Shown here in pieces: positions 14,588 to 26,334 of a stretch of DNA of 64,000 nucleotides. The stretch spans positions 1 through 64,000 of the forward strand of contig NZ_VCQU01000007.1 of the NCBI RefSeq assembly GCF_012932915.1, in the 5' to 3' direction. Positions within the stretch are counted from its first letter, which is position 1, and every line of letters begins with the position of its first letter. The translations under genes were made by a program, and so were the position numbers. The stretch comes from Antrihabitans stalactiti (GTDB taxonomy: Bacteria > Actinomycetota > Actinomycetes > Mycobacteriales > Mycobacteriaceae). Under the pieces are notes generated by a model. It ran no database searches and was not told the DNA's origin. It saw nothing but the letters and a program-made list of their open reading frames with translations.

Positions 14588-15388
14588 ATGTCAGGCGACA
14601 ACGTGTTCACCAGCGCGGTGGCGGAATTCTACGAAAACTACATGGTGCCTTTGATTTTCGCGCCGTATGCGGCGCCGATGGTCGCGCAGCTGAGGTCACC
14701 GGACATCTCCGACATACTGGAAATCGCCGCTGGGACGGGCGTTCTCACGCGCGCGTTGGCGGAGGGATTGACCGACCGCGTATCGATCGTCGCGACCGAT
14801 CTCAATGAAGCGATGCTCGACCAAGCCGCCGCGATCGGGACAGCAAGACCTGTCGAATGGCGGCAGGCGGATGCCATGCAGCTTCCGTTCGCGGACGCGA
14901 GTTTCGACGCCGTGATCTGCCAGTTCGGCGCAATGTTCTTCCCCGACAGAGCATTTGCGTATGCCGAGGCACGCCGCGTGCTACGACCGGGTGGGCAATT
15001 CGTGTTCAGTACCTGGGATCGTATCGAGGAGAACGAGTTCGCCGATACGGTGACGACCGCTTTGCAGGAAGTGTTTCCCAACGATCCCCCGCGTTTCCTC
15101 GCGCGCACCCCACACGGCTACTACGACACTGCGACAATCACCGAGGACCTGGCTCGAGCCGGCTTCGCCACCGCACCACAGATCACCACGATCGCTGCGC
15201 GAAGTCGCGCGCAGTCACCACACATTCCGGCTCTCGCCTACTGCCACGGGACACCCCTGAGAGACGAGATCGAAGCCCGAGGCGATCTCGACCGTGCCAC
15301 CGCAGCAGCGGAGCGGGCCCTGGCCGAGCAATTCGGTACCGGCGCCGTGGACGGGAAAATCCAGGCGCACATCGTCACTGTTTGCTAG
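14588..15388 (+). CDS. Class I SAM-dependent methyltransferase
   Basis: A 266-residue Rossmann-fold methyltransferase. Motif I is DILEIAAGTGVLTRALAEG (residues 39-57). The acidic residue of motif II is in VSIVATDLNEAML. Motif III region is WRQADAMQLPFADASFDAVICQFG and the post-motif region is EARRVLRPGGQFVFSTWD. These match the UbiE/COQ5-like Methyltransf_11 group. It acts in the cytoplasm on an unidentified small molecule. Start preceded by GAGAGGTGAG. Divergent from the DUF6670-like gene; its 3' end overlaps the convergent membrane-protein gene by 14 bases. Confidence 0.9.
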   Translation: MSGDNVFTSAVAEFYENYMVPLIFAPYAAPMVAQLRSPDISDILEIAAGTGVLTRALAEGLTDRVSIVATDLNEAMLDQAAAIGTARPVEWRQADAMQLPFADASFDAVICQFGAMFFPDRAFAYAEARRVLRPGGQFVFSTWDRIEENEFADTVTTALQEVFPNDPPRFLARTPHGYYDTATITEDLARAGFATAPQITTIAARSRAQSPHIPALAYCHGTPLRDEIEARGDLDRATAAAERALAEQFGTGAVDGKIQAHIVTVC

Positions 15389-19635: not shown

Positions 19636-19664
19636 TGTAACCCCGTCTCCTATTACCTAGGGAA
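19636..19664 (+). promoter_or_regulatory. Shared ECF-type promoter motif, copy 3
   Basis: TGTAACC at 19636-19642, then six bases, then CCTAT at 19649-19653. The same arrangement precedes the sigma-factor unit and the cupredoxin unit. It lies about 45 bases before the start of the small secreted protein gene. Confidence 0.55.
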
Positions 19665-19686
19665 GGAATCAACCTAGGAGACAACG

Positions 19687-19857
19687 ATGTTCACGAAATC
19701 GATCCACACCGGACTCGCCCTGCTGGGCGCCACCGCAGCCATTGCTCTCGGCACCTCGACCGCCAACGCGGCTCCCCCGGACGTCGACCCGCCCTGCTTC
19801 TCGCACTACAACCCGTCGTCGGACACCTTCGAGTGGACCTGCGGACTGGGTGCCTGA
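19687..19857 (+). CDS. 56-residue secreted protein, probable ECF-regulon member
   Basis: A very small gene with a good ribosome-binding site (TAGGAGA, 6 bases before the ATG). The product MFTKSIHTGLALLGATAAIA continues through a signal peptide cut near TANAAP (residue 28), leaving a mature peptide of about 28 residues: Pro/Asp-rich with two cysteines (DPPCFSHY and FEWTCGLGA) that could form a loop. Function unknown. The promoter carries the TGTAACC-n6-CCTAT motif shared with the sigma-factor and cupredoxin units, so it is likely co-regulated with them. Short and unmatched, so annotation rests on the signal peptide and start context. Confidence 0.65.
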   Translation: MFTKSIHTGLALLGATAAIALGTSTANAAPPDVDPPCFSHYNPSSDTFEWTCGLGA

Positions 19858-19984
19858 GCGATCCAACAACCACCGTCGTCCCGCAGGGCAATTTGTTCGA
19901 CGCACGGGCAAATTGCGCCTGCGGGATACAAAATGGGGTGCGGGAGTGGCCCAGCCTTGGCCGAGGGGGTCTTTCCGCAAGAAA

Positions 19985-20021
19985 CGGCCGCGCGGGTCTC
20001 CCCTCCGGAGCCGCGCGGCCG
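19985..20021. terminator. Strong GC-rich stem-loop between convergent units
   Basis: CGGCCGCGCGG at 19985-19995 pairs with its complement at 20011-20021 around a 15-base loop. It lies 18 bases after the end of the minus-strand tatA gene and downstream of the plus-strand small secreted gene, so it can end both transcripts. There is no long U tract. Confidence 0.7.
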
Positions 20022-20039
20022 TTCGATACGACCTCCACC

Positions 20040-20201
20040 TCAGGAGGGCGGATCGTCTCGCTGCATCGCCTTGACCTCGCTCGTGAAGATTCGCAACGAC
20101 TGGCCCAAACCCCGTTCCGCAGCAGGGAGTCTCGTCGAACCGAAGAGAACCATGAGGACCACAATCACCAGCGCCCAGTGCCAAGGACTCATACTGCCCA
20201 T
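20040..20201 (-). CDS. tatA: TatA-like Tat translocase subunit (short, 53 residues)
   Basis: A small gene encoding MGSMSPWHWALVIVVLMVLF then GSTRLPAAERGLGQSLRIF and a short tail SEVKAMQRDDPPS. This is the TatA pattern: one transmembrane helix, the FG hinge, and an amphipathic helix with conserved LP, GLG-x-SLRIF and KSEV-like features, closest to mycobacterial TatA. The acidic/Pro-rich C-terminal tail of housekeeping TatA is almost absent. GGAGACGGG precedes the ATG, which lies inside the last codons of tatB (13-base overlap), so translation is coupled. It would form the pore-lining multimer of a Tat system, needing TatC from elsewhere. Confidence 0.85.
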   Translation of the reverse strand: MGSMSPWHWALVIVVLMVLFGSTRLPAAERGLGQSLRIFTSEVKAMQRDDPPS

Positions 20202-20455
20202 TTCCCGTCTCCTTCGTTGTCAGGTTCGGTGAAGACGACGGTCGGAGTGACCTCTGGTATCGACTCACCCAATTCGCTTAATACCGGCTGCAATTCGGCG
20301 TGCAGCTGCTCGCTGATGCCGCTCGCGTAGTCGCGAGCCCGTCGCACGTACTGCAGGGTTTGTCGCACCGCACCAGGGAGGCGCTCCGGGCCGAGAACGA
20401 CGAGCGCGGCGACGATGAGGAGAAACAGTTTGTCCCACCCGATGTTGTTGAACAT
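20189..20455 (-). CDS. tatB: TatB-like Tat translocase subunit
   Basis: An 88-residue protein: MFNNIGWDKLFLLIVAALVV then LGPERLPGAVRQTLQYVRRARDY. The single N-terminal helix starting with N-IGW, the LGPERLP hinge and the following amphipathic helix are the TatB signature. The C-terminal region (SEQLHAELQPVLSELGESIPEV) matches the charged tail but is shorter than in housekeeping TatB. TatB with TatC recognises twin-arginine signals. The start ATG overlaps the stop of the upstream four-TM gene (TGATG) and the end overlaps tatA, so it is the fourth gene of a five-gene coupled operon whose second gene encodes a Tat substrate. Confidence 0.9.
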   Translation of the reverse strand: MFNNIGWDKLFLLIVAALVVLGPERLPGAVRQTLQYVRRARDYASGISEQLHAELQPVLSELGESIPEVTPTVVFTEPDNEGDGKWAV

Positions 20456-20877
20456 CAGGCGACCTCGCGCCTGGACCTGAGCAACCACAACCGGTGCACG
20501 ATGGACACCACAACCAAAGCAACAGTGACGATTTCGGCAATGACGCTGATAGCTGCTTTCGGTGCGGGTTCCCAGCCGATCTCGGTGAAGCCGAAGATCC
20601 CGACAGTGCGCGAGAGCGCGAAGGCCACCAATGCGCCGCCGGCAATTGCGGCCCCGGCGATTCGCAGGGTGAACGGTCCGCCGAGGAGGAGCAGCACCGC
20701 GATCGCAAACGACGCCGCAGCCTGCACGAGGAACGACGGACCGATCATGTGGATATACCGGTAGCCGCCTCGATACAGGTCGTAGTGGACGTAACCGCTG
20801 ATCGCGAGGGACGCGCTGATCCCGGCGCGCAGCAACACATCTGGCCACACTCGGGGAAGGGTCTGCGTCAAAGTCAT
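20455..20877 (-). CDS. Four-TM membrane protein of the cupredoxin-Tat operon
   Basis: A 140-residue integral membrane protein with four helices: LLRAGISASLAISGYVHYDL (about 16-35), MIGPSFLVQAAASFAIAVLL (44-63), IAGAAIAGGALVAFALSRTV (72-91) and ISVIAEIVTVALVVVSIVHR (109-128). His and Tyr residues cluster at the outer ends of helices 1 and 2 (YVHYDLYRGGYRYIHM) and again in IVHRLW. These could bind heme or metal, which is speculation. No family named. Start and stop overlap those of its neighbours (ATGA and TGATG), so it is produced together with the metallophosphoesterase and TatB. Confidence 0.8.
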   Translation of the reverse strand: MTLTQTLPRVWPDVLLRAGISASLAISGYVHYDLYRGGYRYIHMIGPSFLVQAAASFAIAVLLLLGGPFTLRIAGAAIAGGALVAFALSRTVGIFGFTEIGWEPAPKAAISVIAEIVTVALVVVSIVHRLWLLRSRREVA

Positions 20878-21845
20878 TTCAGCACCTGCTCTTTCAGGGC
20901 AAGCATTTGCTGTCCCTTCTGGTAACTGACTTCCCGGATCCCGAGCGCATCGTGCAACTTCCCGGCGGGAAGGACCAGTGGCTTGGGAACCGTGATTCCC
21001 GGCTCACCGGGCTTCGGCAACGCGTACGCGGTGGTGGTGCCGCTGTAGAACGTGATGTTGCCTTCGGTCTTCGTGAACAGTTGGTGGACATGCCCGTTGA
21101 GACACGTCACCGACGCGAAGCGCTTCAGGTAGCTCAGGGCTTGGGTGGCATCGTCTGTGCCCCAACCCCATTGCGGATACATCTCGAACAACGGGATGTG
21201 GCTGAACACGATGATCGGTGTGTCGCTGGACAGTCCCTCGACATCCTTGCGGACGAACTCGAGCTGCTCCTGCCCGAGATGGCCCAGCAGCTTCATGTTC
21301 AACGTATTGACCAGCGCGATGACATGAACGCCTGCGACGTCGAAGCTGTACCAACCGTCTCCACGAGTGCCCTTGCCGAAAGCATCCCGATACCGCTGAC
21401 CGTGATCGTCGGTCGAGTCGTGTTCGCCGGGGACGGTGAAGATGTGTGGTGTATTCAGCCCTTTCATCATCTCCTTCACCTGGTCGAACTGCTCCGGCGT
21501 CGCGAGATGGGTGAGATCACCGGTGTGAATGACGAAGTCGGGTGTGTAACCGAGCGAGTTGACCTGCCCGATCGCCTCGGTGAACGTGTCTGCCACGTTG
21601 GTGTTCGCCGCGCCCTGGAAGCCGATGTGGCTGTCGCTGATCTGGGCGAATCGCAACGTCGGACGCGACGGTGCAGCGCTGCTGACCGGAGTCCCAGCGA
21701 CCTGGGAGATCACCTCTCCCCCAACGATACTCAATCCAACTGCCGCACCGAACCACGCCGTGTGCCGCATCAACTGCCTGCGCGACATCGTGTGCGGGTC
21801 ACGCGGGTCCGTGTGCTCGTTGTGTTCGGACTCGACGGTGCTCAT
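20874..21845 (-). CDS. Tat-exported calcineurin-like metallophosphoesterase
   Basis: A 323-residue protein. Near residue 22 a twin-arginine motif (SRRQLMRHTAWF) is followed by a hydrophobic helix (GAAVGLSIVGG), so it should leave the cell folded. After it come all five metallophosphoesterase blocks: ISDSHIGF, HTGDLTH, VPGEHDS, FSHIPLF and CLNGHVHQLF. Two metal ions are expected at the active site. Related exported enzymes cleave phosphoesters of nucleotides, lipids or wall polymers; the substrate is unknown. It overlaps both neighbours by ATGA, so it is made with the cupredoxin and the four-TM protein, and the same operon supplies TatB and TatA that could export it. Confidence 0.9.
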   Translation of the reverse strand: MSTVESEHNEHTDPRDPHTMSRRQLMRHTAWFGAAVGLSIVGGEVISQVAGTPVSSAAPSRPTLRFAQISDSHIGFQGAANTNVADTFTEAIGQVNSLGYTPDFVIHTGDLTHLATPEQFDQVKEMMKGLNTPHIFTVPGEHDSTDDHGQRYRDAFGKGTRGDGWYSFDVAGVHVIALVNTLNMKLLGHLGQEQLEFVRKDVEGLSSDTPIIVFSHIPLFEMYPQWGWGTDDATQALSYLKRFASVTCLNGHVHQLFTKTEGNITFYSGTTTAYALPKPGEPGITVPKPLVLPAGKLHDALGIREVSYQKGQQMLALKEQVLK

Positions 21846-22333
21846 GGCGTCACCACCACGGTCGCCTGCATGAACGGGTGGATCGAGCAGATGTAGTCGA
21901 ACGTGCCCGCCTCGGTGAATGTGTAGGTGTAGGTGCTGCCTGCACCCATGCCCGGCGAATGGAAGGTGCCGTCGCTGCTGGCCACCGTGTGCGGTTCTTC
22001 GTCTTTGTTGGTCCAGGTCACGGTCGTGCCGACGGGCACGGTGAGTTTGGCCGGCGCGAACGCGAAATTGTCGATGTTCACTGCATTGGCCGCCGCCGGC
22101 GCTGCGGGCGCCTCGGTCGGCGCCGTCATACCTGGCATCCCAGGCATCGACATAGCCGTGGGGCTCATCCCCGGCATCCCGGGCGTCTCCGCACCGGACG
22201 CGAAAGTGAACGACGGCGACGCATCGTCAGCCTGTGATCCGGTGTCGGATCCGCATGCGCTGAACGTCAAAGCCGTAGCAGCGGCGCAGGTCACGGCAAC
22301 GATCGCGTGCCGCCGATCCAGAATCTTTCTCAT
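21842..22333 (-). CDS. Met-rich cupredoxin lipoprotein
   Basis: A 163-residue protein. The signal peptide ends in a lipobox (LTFSACGS, Cys about 27), so it should be lipid-anchored outside the membrane. Residues about 50-72 repeat Met-Pro-Gly-Met units (MPGMSPTAMSMPGMPGM), typical of copper-handling segments. The C-terminal 95 residues are a plastocyanin/azurin-like cupredoxin: VNIDNFAFAPAKLTVPVGTT, with copper ligands His in EEPHTV, Cys in DYICSIH, His in the same motif and Met in HPFM. It could carry electrons or hold copper. First gene of the five-gene unit, about 65 bases after the shared promoter motif. Confidence 0.9.
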   Translation of the reverse strand: MRKILDRRHAIVAVTCAAATALTFSACGSDTGSQADDASPSFTFASGAETPGMPGMSPTAMSMPGMPGMTAPTEAPAAPAAANAVNIDNFAFAPAKLTVPVGTTVTWTNKDEEPHTVASSDGTFHSPGMGAGSTYTYTFTEAGTFDYICSIHPFMQATVVVTP

Positions 22334-22378
22334 GGGTGCAATCTCCGATTCCGTAGTCCTCCCGTCCCACGCGGACGG

Positions 22379-22406
22379 TCATCAACAGATAGGGAGGGGG
22401 GTTACA
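22379..22406 (-). promoter_or_regulatory. Shared ECF-type promoter motif, copy 2
   Basis: On the minus strand TGTAACC (22406-22400), six bases, CCTATC (22393-22388) and GATGA 16 bases after GTAACC. Nearly the same string precedes the sigma-factor gene. It drives the cupredoxin-to-tatA unit. Confidence 0.65.
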
Positions 22407-22411
22407 AACAG

Positions 22412-22457
22412 ACTGTGCGTGAGTTTGGCCCCCAGAGGGGCCAAACTCACGCACAGT
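22412..22457. repeat. Perfect 21-base intergenic palindrome
   Basis: ACTGTGCGTGAGTTTGGCCCC at 22412-22432 has its exact complement at 22437-22457, with a 4-base loop. It lies 11 bases after the stop of the Rieske gene and 6 bases before the next promoter motif, so it probably separates the two transcription units. Its CGTGAGT core recurs in the palindrome at 28575-28618. Confidence 0.85.
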
Positions 22458-22468
22458 TGTTGGGCGGG

Positions 22469-23173
22469 TCAGGCGGGTTCGGTTGGCGCGAAAACCTCGA
22501 TGGTGCCGTCGTTTTCGCGGATCTGCAATTTCGGCAACGGCGCCGGACTGATCGGCAGCTGGTGGGTGAGCACCTCGCCCGCAGTGGAGAAGGAGGTCGA
22601 ATGGCACGGGCAGCGCAATTTGTCGGCTGGAGCGTCCAGCCACAACTTGCAGCCCTGATGCGTGCAGACCCCCGACACCGCGGTCGGTTGCCCGTCGACT
22701 CGACGCACGAATCCGCTGATCGTGCCGACGTTGAAGGCAACGGTCGCTCCGTTCGGAACGTCCGCACTAGCGGCTATCGCGCGCCACGCTCCGGTGGTCG
22801 GTTCCAGCGTTCCCTGCGAGAGGACGGGCGTCTGCTTGTCGGCCGCATTTCCGCGGACGATCGTGTTGTCGACAACCGCGCCGACTGCGGCCGCGGCAGC
22901 TGCGACCGATCCGCCGATGAGGACCGTCCGGCGCGTCGTCGAAGGTCCTGTCTTCCGCGCATCGTCGGGGGAAGGATCATCGATCTCGGCAGCGAGACGC
23001 TGCTGGAGGTCGGTGAGAAACGATTCGCTCGGCGTGTCCGCGCCGAGGCGTCCCGCGCGTAACGTGATCGCGGCGCGCATCTCCTCGGCCTCGGCCTCAT
23101 CGGGACGGAACGACCGTGCCCGCCGTCCAGCCAGCAGATCTTCGACGTATCGCCGTACTTCCCTTCGGGTCAC
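22469..23173 (-). CDS. Membrane Rieske protein with anti-sigma-like cytoplasmic extension
   Basis: A 234-residue protein. Residues 1-80 are soluble and charged (TRREVRRYVEDLLAGRR, RPDEAEAEEMRAAI). A membrane segment at about 81-105 is preceded by RR (TTRRTVLIGGSVAAAAAAVG), which is also a Tat-type signal anchor. The C-terminal 120 residues are a Rieske domain with both boxes complete (CTHQGC and CPCHSTSF), so a 2Fe-2S cluster is expected outside the membrane. The gene overlaps the ECF sigma gene by ATGA, the usual place of an anti-sigma factor. I infer a redox-sensing anti-sigma role for the N-terminal extension. No zinc-finger HxxxCxxC motif is present, so this remains a hypothesis. Confidence 0.8.
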   Translation of the reverse strand: MTRREVRRYVEDLLAGRRARSFRPDEAEAEEMRAAITLRAGRLGADTPSESFLTDLQQRLAAEIDDPSPDDARKTGPSTTRRTVLIGGSVAAAAAAVGAVVDNTIVRGNAADKQTPVLSQGTLEPTTGAWRAIAASADVPNGATVAFNVGTISGFVRRVDGQPTAVSGVCTHQGCKLWLDAPADKLRCPCHSTSFSTAGEVLTHQLPISPAPLPKLQIRENDGTIEVFAPTEPA

Positions 23174-23748
23174 TTCGCACCTCCTTCAGGCAACTGTGCC
23201 GCCATCTGCAACGCCCGGTGTTGCAATACTTTCGCATTCGCGACGCTGACTCCCAGGTCACTTGCGGAATCGTTCACCGAAAGTCCATGCAGAAACCGTA
23301 GCTCCAGAATGCGTCGGTATCGGTCAGGAAGCCGATTCAGCAGCGTGTGCGCTCGACTCACCGCCGTCGTGTTCGCCACCGATTCTTCAGCAACTTCGGC
23401 TGGGACGTCGTCATCGATGGTCGTGATCTCGCGGCCCATCCGGGTGCGCCAGTAGCCGGCCAGCACGGTCCGTGCGGTCGCGCGCAAATATGCGCGAACC
23501 TCCCCCACGCTCGCCGACACTCGCAATGGTCGTAGCGCTGCCATGAATACCTCGGTGGTCAGGTCCTCCGCGTCCGGGCGGTTACCGACCTTCGAGAACA
23601 TCAGTCCGTACACCCAGCCGACGTTGTCTCGATACAGTGCGTCCCAGTCGGGGTAGGTGTCATCGGACACCAGCCGCAACTCCCGCCGCACTTTCGGATC
23701 TCGACCATCGCCGCTGTGCCGGGGCCCGGATTCCGGCCGTCCCGTCAT
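23170..23748 (-). CDS. ECF (group IV) sigma-70 factor
   Basis: A 192-residue sigma factor. Region 2 is YRDNVGWVYGLMFSKVGNRPDAEDLTTEVFMAAL (about residues 39-72) and region 4 is LLNRLPDRYRRILELRFLHGLSVNDSASDLGVSVANAKVLQHRAL (about 137-181). Regions 1.1 and 3 are absent, as in ECF factors. It directs RNA polymerase to a small regulon. Its own promoter and two neighbouring units share a TGTAACC-n6-CCTAT motif, so autoregulation and control of the Tat/cupredoxin genes are likely. It overlaps the Rieske gene by 4 bases and heads the unit. Confidence 0.92.
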   Translation of the reverse strand: MTGRPESGPRHSGDGRDPKVRRELRLVSDDTYPDWDALYRDNVGWVYGLMFSKVGNRPDAEDLTTEVFMAALRPLRVSASVGEVRAYLRATARTVLAGYWRTRMGREITTIDDDVPAEVAEESVANTTAVSRAHTLLNRLPDRYRRILELRFLHGLSVNDSASDLGVSVANAKVLQHRALQMAAQLPEGGAK

Positions 23749-23790
23749 TGACTCTTGCCTTCCGACTCTGCCGCCGACGCATCGCCACGC

Positions 23791-23818
23791 CTATCAGTAG
23801 ATAGGGAAGGTGGTTACA
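23791..23818 (-). promoter_or_regulatory. Shared ECF-type promoter motif, copy 1
   Basis: On the minus strand TGTAACC (23818-23812), six bases, CCTATC (23805-23800) and GATAG 16 bases after GTAACC, about 65-70 bases before the sigma-factor start. Matches the copies at 22379-22406 and, in part, 19636-19664. Confidence 0.65.
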
Positions 23819-25188: not shown

Positions 25189-26334
25189 ATGCAAGACAAC
25201 ACAATTCACCCAGAAGACAACCCACCACAGAAGACCGTGACCGGGATCGTCGACATTACCAACGACCATGCGTCGGTGCACGTCGACGGCTACCTCGCTG
25301 GTCGGCGTGACGCTCACGTTCCCCCACGGCTGATCCGCGAGTACGGACTGCGCCGCGGCGATACCGTGACCGGCGCAGTCGGTCCGAAGCGCGAAGGCGC
25401 CAAGTTCGCCCCGCTGGTTCGGATCGACACCATCAACGGTCTGCCGCCCGGACAGGCGAAATCGCGACCGCACTTCGCCGATTTGGTCCCTCTCTATCCG
25501 CAAGAACGGCTGCGGCTGGAGACCGAGTCGCACGAAATGACCACGCGCATCACAGATCTGGTGATGCCGATCGGCAAAGGCCAGCGCGCACTCGTCGTGG
25601 CACCACCCAAGGCCGGCAAAACGTCTGTGCTGCAATCCATTGCGCACGGTATCGCGAAGAACCATCCCGAGTGCCAGTTGATGCTGGTGCTCGTCGGCGA
25701 ACGCCCGGAAGAAGTCACCGACTTGTCCCGTTCGGTGCCTGCCGAGATTGCCGCGTCGACCTTCGACGAGCCAGCCCGCGACCACATCGCTCTCGCCGAA
25801 TTGGCGATCGAACATGCCAAACGCCTCGTCGAAATGGGCCGCGACGTCGTCGTTCTGCTCGACTCACTGACCCGACTGGCCCGCGCCTACAACCTTGCCG
25901 CCGCCGGTTCCGGTCGCATCCTCTCGGGCGGCGTCGACGCCGGTGCGCTGGCACCACCGAAGAAGTTCCTCGGCGCCGCGCGCAATATCGAGAACGGCGG
26001 CTCGCTCACGATTATCGCCACAGCCCTCGTCGAGACTGGATCGCTCGCCGACACAGTCATTTTCGAGGAATACAAGGGCACCGGCAACGCTGAGTTGAAG
26101 CTCGACCGGCACCTCGCCGACCGCCGACTGTTCCCCGCGATCGACATCGACCGCTCCAGCACGCGCAAAGAAGAACTGCTGCTCTCGGCGAACGAACTCG
26201 GTGCAACACGCTCGCTGCGAAGCACACTCGCAGGACGCGACCCGCAACAAGCGCTCGAACTGTTGCTGACCGGCTTGAAGCAGACCGAAACGAACGGCGA
26301 ATTCCTTACTCAGATCCGCGCATCAGCCCGCTAA
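25189..26334 (+). CDS. Short paralogue of transcription termination factor Rho
   Basis: A 381-residue Rho. It starts directly with the primary RNA-binding region (TGIVDITNDHASVHVDGYLAG, REYGLRRGDTVTGAVG), then FADLVPLYPQERLRLE, Walker A VVAPPKAGKTSV (about residue 144), Walker B VVVLLDSLTRLARAYN, the Q-loop region SGGVDAGALAPPKKFLGAARN and the arginine-finger region. Housekeeping actinobacterial Rho is about 600-700 residues because of a long Arg/Asn/Asp-rich N-terminal insertion, wholly absent here. All ATPase motifs are intact, so it should be an active RNA-dependent helicase/terminator. GTAGGAG precedes the ATG. A KOW protein gene lies convergent downstream. Confidence 0.9.
   Translation: MQDNTIHPEDNPPQKTVTGIVDITNDHASVHVDGYLAGRRDAHVPPRLIREYGLRRGDTVTGAVGPKREGAKFAPLVRIDTINGLPPGQAKSRPHFADLVPLYPQERLRLETESHEMTTRITDLVMPIGKGQRALVVAPPKAGKTSVLQSIAHGIAKNHPECQLMLVLVGERPEEVTDLSRSVPAEIAASTFDEPARDHIALAELAIEHAKRLVEMGRDVVVLLDSLTRLARAYNLAAAGSGRILSGGVDAGALAPPKKFLGAARNIENGGSLTIIATALVETGSLADTVIFEEYKGTGNAELKLDRHLADRRLFPAIDIDRSSTRKEELLLSANELGATRSLRSTLAGRDPQQALELLLTGLKQTETNGEFLTQIRASAR

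Follow-up and report, generated by a model that had tools for sequence, protein, structure and literature searches.

A cluster of seven co-directional genes (positions 20040-23748) was analysed in a 64,000-nucleotide stretch of Antrihabitans stalactiti DNA, hereafter the window (assembly GCF_012932915.1, contig NZ_VCQU01000007.1, positions 1 to 64,000). Whole-genome counts refer to the 6.76 Mb source genome, in which the window lies on contig 24. The cluster encodes an extracytoplasmic function (ECF) sigma factor and a membrane Rieske protein that is a candidate anti-sigma factor, followed by a cupredoxin, a metallophosphoesterase, a protein with four transmembrane helices (4-TM), and the twin-arginine translocation (Tat) components TatB and TatA. 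An additional gene, for a small secreted protein, lies on the opposite strand (Table 1). The complete gene set listed in a preliminary description, made from the letters of the window, was found. A division of the seven genes into two units is backed by one hairpin between the sigma-Rieske pair and the cupredoxin gene and another after TatA. The sigma and Rieske genes overlap as described earlier, but, the Rieske start codon being GTG, the shared letters read GTGA instead of ATGA. For TatB the most likely start is the ATG at 20455, which overlaps the stop codon (TGA) of the 4-TM gene. No Rfam family matched between positions 15000 and 28000 of the window.

Table 1. Genes, motif sites and hairpins of the cluster (window positions; aa, amino acids; nt, nucleotides)
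Feature	Position	Strand	Family or other evidence
ECF sigma factor, BldN-like (192 aa)	23170-23748	-	Pfam Sigma70_r2 and Sigma70_r4_2
Rieske-type candidate anti-sigma factor	22469-23173	-	PF00355
Cupredoxin lipoprotein with Met-rich linker	21842-22333	-	PF00127/PF13473
Tat-signal metallophosphoesterase	20874-21845	-	PF00149
Conserved 4-TM membrane protein	20455-20877	-	Predicted structure; no family assignment
Short TatB paralogue (88 aa)	20189-20455	-	TIGR01410
Short TatA paralogue (53 aa)	20040-20201	-	PF02416, NF001854
Small protein (56 aa), Sec-like signal by sequence reading, two Cys in the remainder	19687-19857	+	
Two-box motif of the sigma-Rieske unit	23801-23818	-	Exact pattern; kept upstream of sigma in relatives
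Two-box motif of the cupredoxin unit	22389-22406	-	Exact pattern
Two-box motif of the small secreted gene	19636-19653	+	Exact pattern
Perfect 21-nt inverted repeat between the two units, likely terminator	22412-22457		-45.8 kcal/mol, z -8.48
Hairpin 3' of TatA, likely terminator	19983-20023		

The sigma factor has Sigma70_r2 and Sigma70_r4_2 domains, both above the Pfam cut-off, as in ECF (group IV) factors. Its best NCBIfam match is the BldN family, TIGR02952, at 63.4 bits, under the cut-off of 206.45; by sequence it is a BldN-like factor and not BldN. The best relative in the PDB is 6dxo_A (E 3.8e-10); SigE chains follow closely. The 6dxo entry is, we assume, the complex of BldN with its anti-sigma factor RsbN.

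The Rieske protein is predicted to consist of a cytoplasmic N-terminal domain (N-domain, residues 1-66), a twin-arginine (RR) anchor at about 81-100 and an extracytoplasmic Rieske domain at about 121-234. In the AlphaFold2 model the N-domain forms three helices (3-14, 26-40 and 50-65) and the Rieske domain is confident. Its nearest relatives are soluble Rieske domains such as 8hn2, the best match both by sequence and by fold. The CxH ... CxxH arrangement of a Rieske [2Fe-2S] cluster is complete. These ligands (C170, H172, C188 and H191), RR81-82 and the cysteines C175 and C190 are invariant in all 62 aligned proteins, as are F52 and L56 of the N-domain. All 95 Rieske proteins with a length of 200 aa or more carry an RR-x-hydrophobic signal, and 77/78 phosphoesterases of at least 250 aa carry one of the form [ST]RRx-hydrophobic. 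The RR signals that had been noticed on the two window proteins are thus real.

The coupling of the Rieske gene to a sigma gene was followed in relatives. The best 80 of 93 loci and 28 further ones gave 96 non-redundant loci after 12 duplicates of the 108 were removed. Genera among the best 80 were Nocardia, Mycobacterium, Mycolicibacterium, Mycobacteroides, Skermania, Smaragdicoccus and Antrihabitans, with some metagenome-assembled genomes. By tblastn (E <=1e-3) the 96 loci contained sigma in 94, phosphoesterase in 79, cupredoxin in 78, the 4-TM protein in 60, TatA in 2 and TatB in 2. Sigma did not accompany the Rieske gene in two loci, L073, which is a broken fragment, and L110, which lies at a contig edge. 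The L073 Rieske remnant (genome G065) has an internal stop, no sigma was found nearby, and it looks decayed. Beyond the family, 12 order-level loci in 11 genomes all co-encode sigma and Rieske (one of them, L213, duplicates the record L112 in the first set), and 9 of the 12 have cupredoxin and phosphoesterase. When 384 class genomes were searched with a profile of the N-domain alone, 25 matched, 16 of them outside the family. In 15 of these 16 the match lay in a Rieske protein and in the other in an open reading frame (ORF) cut by the contig end; no other type of sensor carrying the N-domain was seen in this search. All 16 class-level loci outside the family co-encode sigma, which lies upstream, and a motif-like site precedes it in 15.

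In a draw of 401 genomes of the family, taken to be the same for both proteins because the listed genomes agree, the Rieske protein was matched in 29 (E <=1e-25), one of them broken, and the phosphoesterase in 26 (E <=1e-60), all among the 29. The three Rieske-bearing genomes that lack the phosphoesterase are the broken case, G321 and G365, the latter two from the genus of M. colombiense. The phosphoesterase match in G360 has one internal TAG. A thinner draw over the phylum gave the phosphoesterase in 4 of 346 genomes. The sigma-Rieske pair, the motif described below and the cupredoxin-phosphoesterase pair are also found in Nocardia, in mycobacteria and in further actinobacterial families.

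The motif TGTAACC-N6-CCTAT had been reported ahead of the sigma gene, the cupredoxin unit and the small secreted gene. It is exact at all three, 33, 55 and 52 nt upstream of the start codons for the sites at 19636, 22389 and 23801, respectively; the pattern was derived from these three sites, and their exactness is therefore not independent. Within the window alone the result is not striking: with two mismatches allowed, 3 matches were found against 1.0 expected, and 3 of 100 shuffled sequences reached 3. In the 6.76 Mb genome, however, the motif matches nowhere else even when one mismatch is allowed, compared with 3 matches for a reversed control. The motif is considered meaningful because of this absence elsewhere and its retention in relatives. 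A refined pattern, TGTAACC-N6-SCTAT, read off some of the relatives' loci, had 34 exact matches in the 29 Rieske-bearing genomes, and 29 of these matches lay within the cluster; the reversed control had 9. In 20 genomes with no Rieske match there were 2 matches and 3 control matches. A chance origin was rejected on the grounds of the genome-wide uniqueness and this enrichment over the control.

The genes downstream of motif sites encode cupredoxin units, sigma, DoxX membrane proteins (PF07681) and small two-Cys proteins. The last follow the motif in some mycobacterial loci and are unrelated to the 56-aa protein of the window. Sites that longest-ORF assignment had placed under wrong-frame Rieske or phosphoesterase ORFs were left uncounted. 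A weight-matrix scan of the 94 sigma loci left 13 with no good site. In eight of these (L089, L094, L107, L109, L111, L112, which is also L213, L114 and L115) a motif-led DoxX gene lies between the motif and sigma, and in L133 a small protein gene does; L058, L090, L092 and L097 were left with no assigned site. Several of the DoxX-led loci have an ATG at motif position 26, and no cupredoxin unit was present in the stretches fetched for them. A single regulon with a motif ahead of the sigma gene itself is supported, and relatives bearing the cluster keep the motif.

The arrangement of the motif appears unusual for an ECF promoter. Positions are numbered from the first T as 0, so that box 1 occupies 0-6, and sites at least 80% identical were merged before counting. 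Earlier site sets came from a search pattern that itself dictates much of box 1 and some of box 2, and the fair figure comes from a search with box 1 alone, from -350 to +60 of the projected start. This found box 1 in 77/94 sigma and 58/78 cupredoxin loci; at some of the latter a wrongly projected start caused the site to be missed. Among the resulting 73 non-redundant sites near sigma or cupredoxin starts, 66 have TA at positions 15-16 and a further 5 have it at 14-15. C18 and T19 are conserved at 75% and 74%, compared with 47-71% for the positions of a TGGTGA consensus at 22-27. The best conserved boxes are 8-9 nt apart, whereas the boxes of ECF promoters are generally separated by about 16-18 nt. 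A search for a -35 box upstream of the CTATCT element showed no clear conservation. T is rare at position 20, just after TATCT (0/70, 3/161 and 5/73 in three site sets), as if a housekeeping TANNNT box were avoided.

The distance to conserved start codons is also short. An ATG lies exactly at position 26 in 22 of 106 non-redundant sites, in front of three unrelated families (cupredoxin, DoxX and small secreted proteins), with no Shine-Dalgarno sequence in the 8 nt ahead of it. In a wider set the count is 26 of 161, whereas positions 30-59 average 2.3 each. The same distance occurs in five order-level cupredoxin loci (L206, L208, L209, L210 and L212). For DoxX this ATG is probably the true start, because the DoxX proteins of L089, L111 and L114, whose genes have a longer leader, begin with a similar N-terminus. 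In six non-redundant mycobacterial sigma sites a GGAG resembling a Shine-Dalgarno sequence occurs near 28-34 and is followed by GTG at 37-38. The position-26 ATG and the placement of GGAG both point to a transcription start at or before about 26-27, which would put box 1 near -26 and box 2 near -11. From these sequence comparisons, the box spacing and the distance to conserved start codons do not appear to fit a normal ECF -35/-10 promoter. The shared element of the preliminary description is real, but its geometry is odd.

A more conventional arrangement was considered, in which the promoter is an ordinary BldN-type TGTAAC-N16-TGGTGA, CTATCT is an accessory spacer element and transcription starts about 10 nt further downstream. 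The sigma factor is itself BldN-like, and the weaker TGGTGA consensus does lie 16 nt after TGTAAC. The BldN consensus quoted in passages of PMC2375139 is CGTAAC-N16-CGTTGA, and GTAAC at -35 is described for C. glutamicum SigD in part of PMC6338062. However, the position-26 ATG would lie ahead of the start point that this arrangement needs, the GGAG and GTG of the six mycobacterial sigma sites do not suit it, and TA at 15-16 is better kept than any position of TGGTGA. The conventional promoter is doubtful on these grounds, though it retains an appreciable chance.

The conserved coupling with sigma, the predicted three-helix cytoplasmic domain, the invariant RR and the complete Rieske ligands suggest, with a probability of roughly 0.7, that the BldN-like ECF sigma has the Rieske protein as its membrane anti-sigma factor. 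The enrichment of the refined motif in Rieske-bearing genomes, the absence of the phosphoesterase from all other genomes of the family sample and the near-exclusive occurrence of the N-domain in Rieske proteins next to sigma also favour this reading. It would bind sigma through its N-domain, and the extracytoplasmic Rieske [2Fe-2S] cluster would be the sensor. Control of sigma by the Rieske protein, as proposed in the preliminary description, is probable on the same sequence and model evidence. Several points weigh against this. First, the model of the N-domain is only moderate (block pLDDT, the predicted local distance difference test, 60-81), and residues 67-117, which include the anchor region, have no confident structure. 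Second, the N-domain has no consistent Pfam match, and no anti-sigma chain occurs among its PDB sequence matches up to E 10. Third, the refined motif was taken from some of the same genomes in which it was counted, 8 of the 29 genomes have no exact match, and the box spacing is unlike that of known ECF promoters. Fourth, although a 65-residue ORF in G901, a distant actinobacterium, consists of the N-domain alone, behind a motif-led cupredoxin, and so speaks for a separate function of this domain, it could be a decayed copy.

Fifth, co-inheritance is also compatible with an electron-transfer partner. Rieske and cupredoxin proteins are commonly redox partners, and the two co-occur in these loci, so the Rieske protein might serve the cupredoxin and be co-regulated by sigma while not inhibiting it. 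The Nocardia nova group (L054, L056, L057, L118, L147 and L154), in which the gene order is reversed and Rieske precedes sigma, each with its own motif-like site, would agree with this. Yet in some loci that have sigma and Rieske, such as the DoxX-led ones, the fetched stretch contains no cupredoxin. Nor is it evident what the conserved N-domain would do in electron transfer, and this domain also exists as a separate copy. A purely electron-transferring Rieske protein is thus unlikely, and the anti-sigma role is preferred.

The G901 loci (L230, L231 and L218) have other unusual features. One sigma gene is followed by two tandem Rieske proteins, and there are two cupredoxins, one paired with a phosphoesterase. 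Two copies of GTGTAACC stand in tandem before one cupredoxin, and a motif-like site lies ahead of a large membrane-protein ORF.

Conservation in the cupredoxin and the phosphoesterase was counted among proteins longer than 80% of the window protein. The cupredoxin has the ligands of a type 1 copper site: among 74 aligned proteins H115 and C149 are invariant, and H152 and M155 are kept in at least 95%. A lipobox-like pattern is present in 76/78, and amicyanin is among the PDB relatives. The phosphoesterase has an RR at 22-23 that is invariant in 79 aligned proteins, and an invariant GEHD (E141). The usual sequence in the metallophosphoesterase superfamily is GNHD/E, so its metal site may differ. 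The model of the 4-TM protein shows four helices with a mean pLDDT of 88.9 and has no fold match at E <= 0.001. The window protein has no Pfam match; some relatives give weak ones only. Just beyond the cluster is a gene for a short Rho-like termination factor (25189-26334 on the + strand; 381 aa, by reading of the translation).

The tiny 53-residue TatA noticed earlier is confirmed by scores of 81.4 for NF001854 (cut-off 72) and 51.6 for PF02416 (cut-off 21). The TatB, searched with one extra upstream codon, scores 65.4 bits for TIGR01410 (cut-off 56.5) but 16.5 for Pfam TatA_B_E, below the cut-off of 21. Pfam and NCBIfam scans of ten neighbours revealed no TatC beside the pair. A housekeeping TatA adjoining a TatC-like ORF (TatC by sequence reading) and a housekeeping TatB are encoded elsewhere in the genome; local TatA matches its housekeeping counterpart at 59% and local TatB at 47%. 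Both are closer to their counterparts in G265 (73% and 52%), where the TatA relative carries its own copy of the motif. A. cavernicola has TatA only, with no TatB in the fetched stretch. L052 encodes a full-length TatB on the other strand, for which the housekeeping protein is the best match.

The Tat pair was presented earlier as a dedicated part of the module. A place in its core is not supported: local-type TatA and TatB-like genes were each found in 2 of 110 other loci (109 different records, L213 repeating L112), and the housekeeping Tat system is complete elsewhere. A fixed place in the regulon was rejected because of this rarity. A small group of relatives has the pair as an extra, and it does not belong to the conserved system. 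It may plausibly provide extra export capacity for the two Tat-signal proteins, Rieske and phosphoesterase. There is also a considerable chance that the two genes are duplicates with no special role that are being lost. Both proteins are shorter than the housekeeping ones (53 vs 85 aa for TatA and 88 vs 130 aa for TatB), the scanned neighbours include no TatC, and the pair is rare. Against such decay, the frames are intact and score above the NCBIfam cut-offs, and the G265 relative keeps its motif; the lone TatA of A. cavernicola is ambiguous.

A mechanism can be proposed from the anti-sigma reading. In resting cells the three-helix N-domain of the Rieske protein would hold the BldN-like sigma at the membrane. 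If a change outside the membrane (copper, an oxidant or a quinol redox imbalance, for instance) altered or destroyed the exposed cluster, it would free sigma, which would then recognize the observed motif and transcribe the units behind it, including its own. The output would be an exported module consisting of a copper-type cupredoxin lipoprotein, a Tat-signal phosphoesterase and a membrane protein. Lineage-specific extras would be added to it: DoxX, small two-Cys proteins or, here, the TatA/TatB pair, possibly increasing the capacity to export Rieske and phosphoesterase. The full combination is put forward tentatively and is still rather improbable as a whole: an exposed Rieske cluster that senses redox state or copper directly across actinobacterial families, a sigma that uses a box near -26 and often makes leaderless mRNAs, and, through the extra TatA/TatB in the regulon of the window's lineage, a sensor in control of its own export machinery.

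Alternatively, the module might sense a failure of Tat export or iron-sulfur assembly. The anti-sigma factor is itself likely a Tat client with a cofactor, and if its export failed it could no longer hold sigma. The RR in 95/95 Rieske proteins and the Tat genes within this lineage's regulon are in keeping with this. Nearly all related loci, however, have no Tat genes, and the common output is cupredoxin plus phosphoesterase, which makes a failure sensor very improbable. If the anti-sigma reading is correct, an extracytoplasmic iron-sulfur redox sensor joins the list of anti-sigma inputs, and a conserved, unnamed actinobacterial gene set (cupredoxin, phosphoesterase and 4-TM protein) acquires a function. 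It also raises the question of how an ECF sigma uses boxes so close together in a motif that is short and is rare in the genomes checked.

No ECF-Rieske system was found in the open-licence PMC literature, as far as titles, the beginnings of abstracts and some passages tell. SigC of C. glutamicum was considered for its copper-linked control of respiration and set aside; the word "Rieske" does not occur in PMC7337898. The Streptomyces Sigma-BldN/RsbN pair resembles the system most in its sigma, whose best PDB relative is 6dxo_A. On the strength of that match we think that the N-domain may work like RsbN, by functional analogy and not by class membership. RsbN has three helices and, to our knowledge, no Rieske domain. 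The GTAAC core at -35 matches the BldN consensus in the passages of PMC2375139, and part of PMC8103513 describes RsbN as a membrane-anchored anti-sigma factor that blocks sigma4 and defines class ASDIII. In contrast, the Rieske N-domain has no anti-sigma sequence match up to E 10, the BldN boxes are spaced N16, and the role of BldN is developmental.

The ASDI anti-sigma factors, according to passages of PMC7406223, have four helices, the fourth of which binds sigma2, and share with the Rieske protein a helical N-domain, co-encoding with an ECF sigma and further sensor domains at the C-terminus. Unlike them, the Rieske N-domain is predicted to have three helices, and the stretch that follows has no confident structure. 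RsmA of Streptomyces is an anti-sigma factor with an iron-sulfur cofactor; it is cytoplasmic and not of the Rieske type, whereas the cluster of the Rieske candidate would sit outside the membrane. The membrane Rieske proteins of quinol oxidation, QcrA and PetC, likewise have a Tat-type anchor and a Rieske domain, and weak UCR_Fe-S_N and TAT_signal matches were obtained in 14 of 62 of the Rieske proteins each. In contrast to QcrA and PetC, the Rieske protein described here is encoded with an ECF sigma factor and has an extra conserved N-domain.

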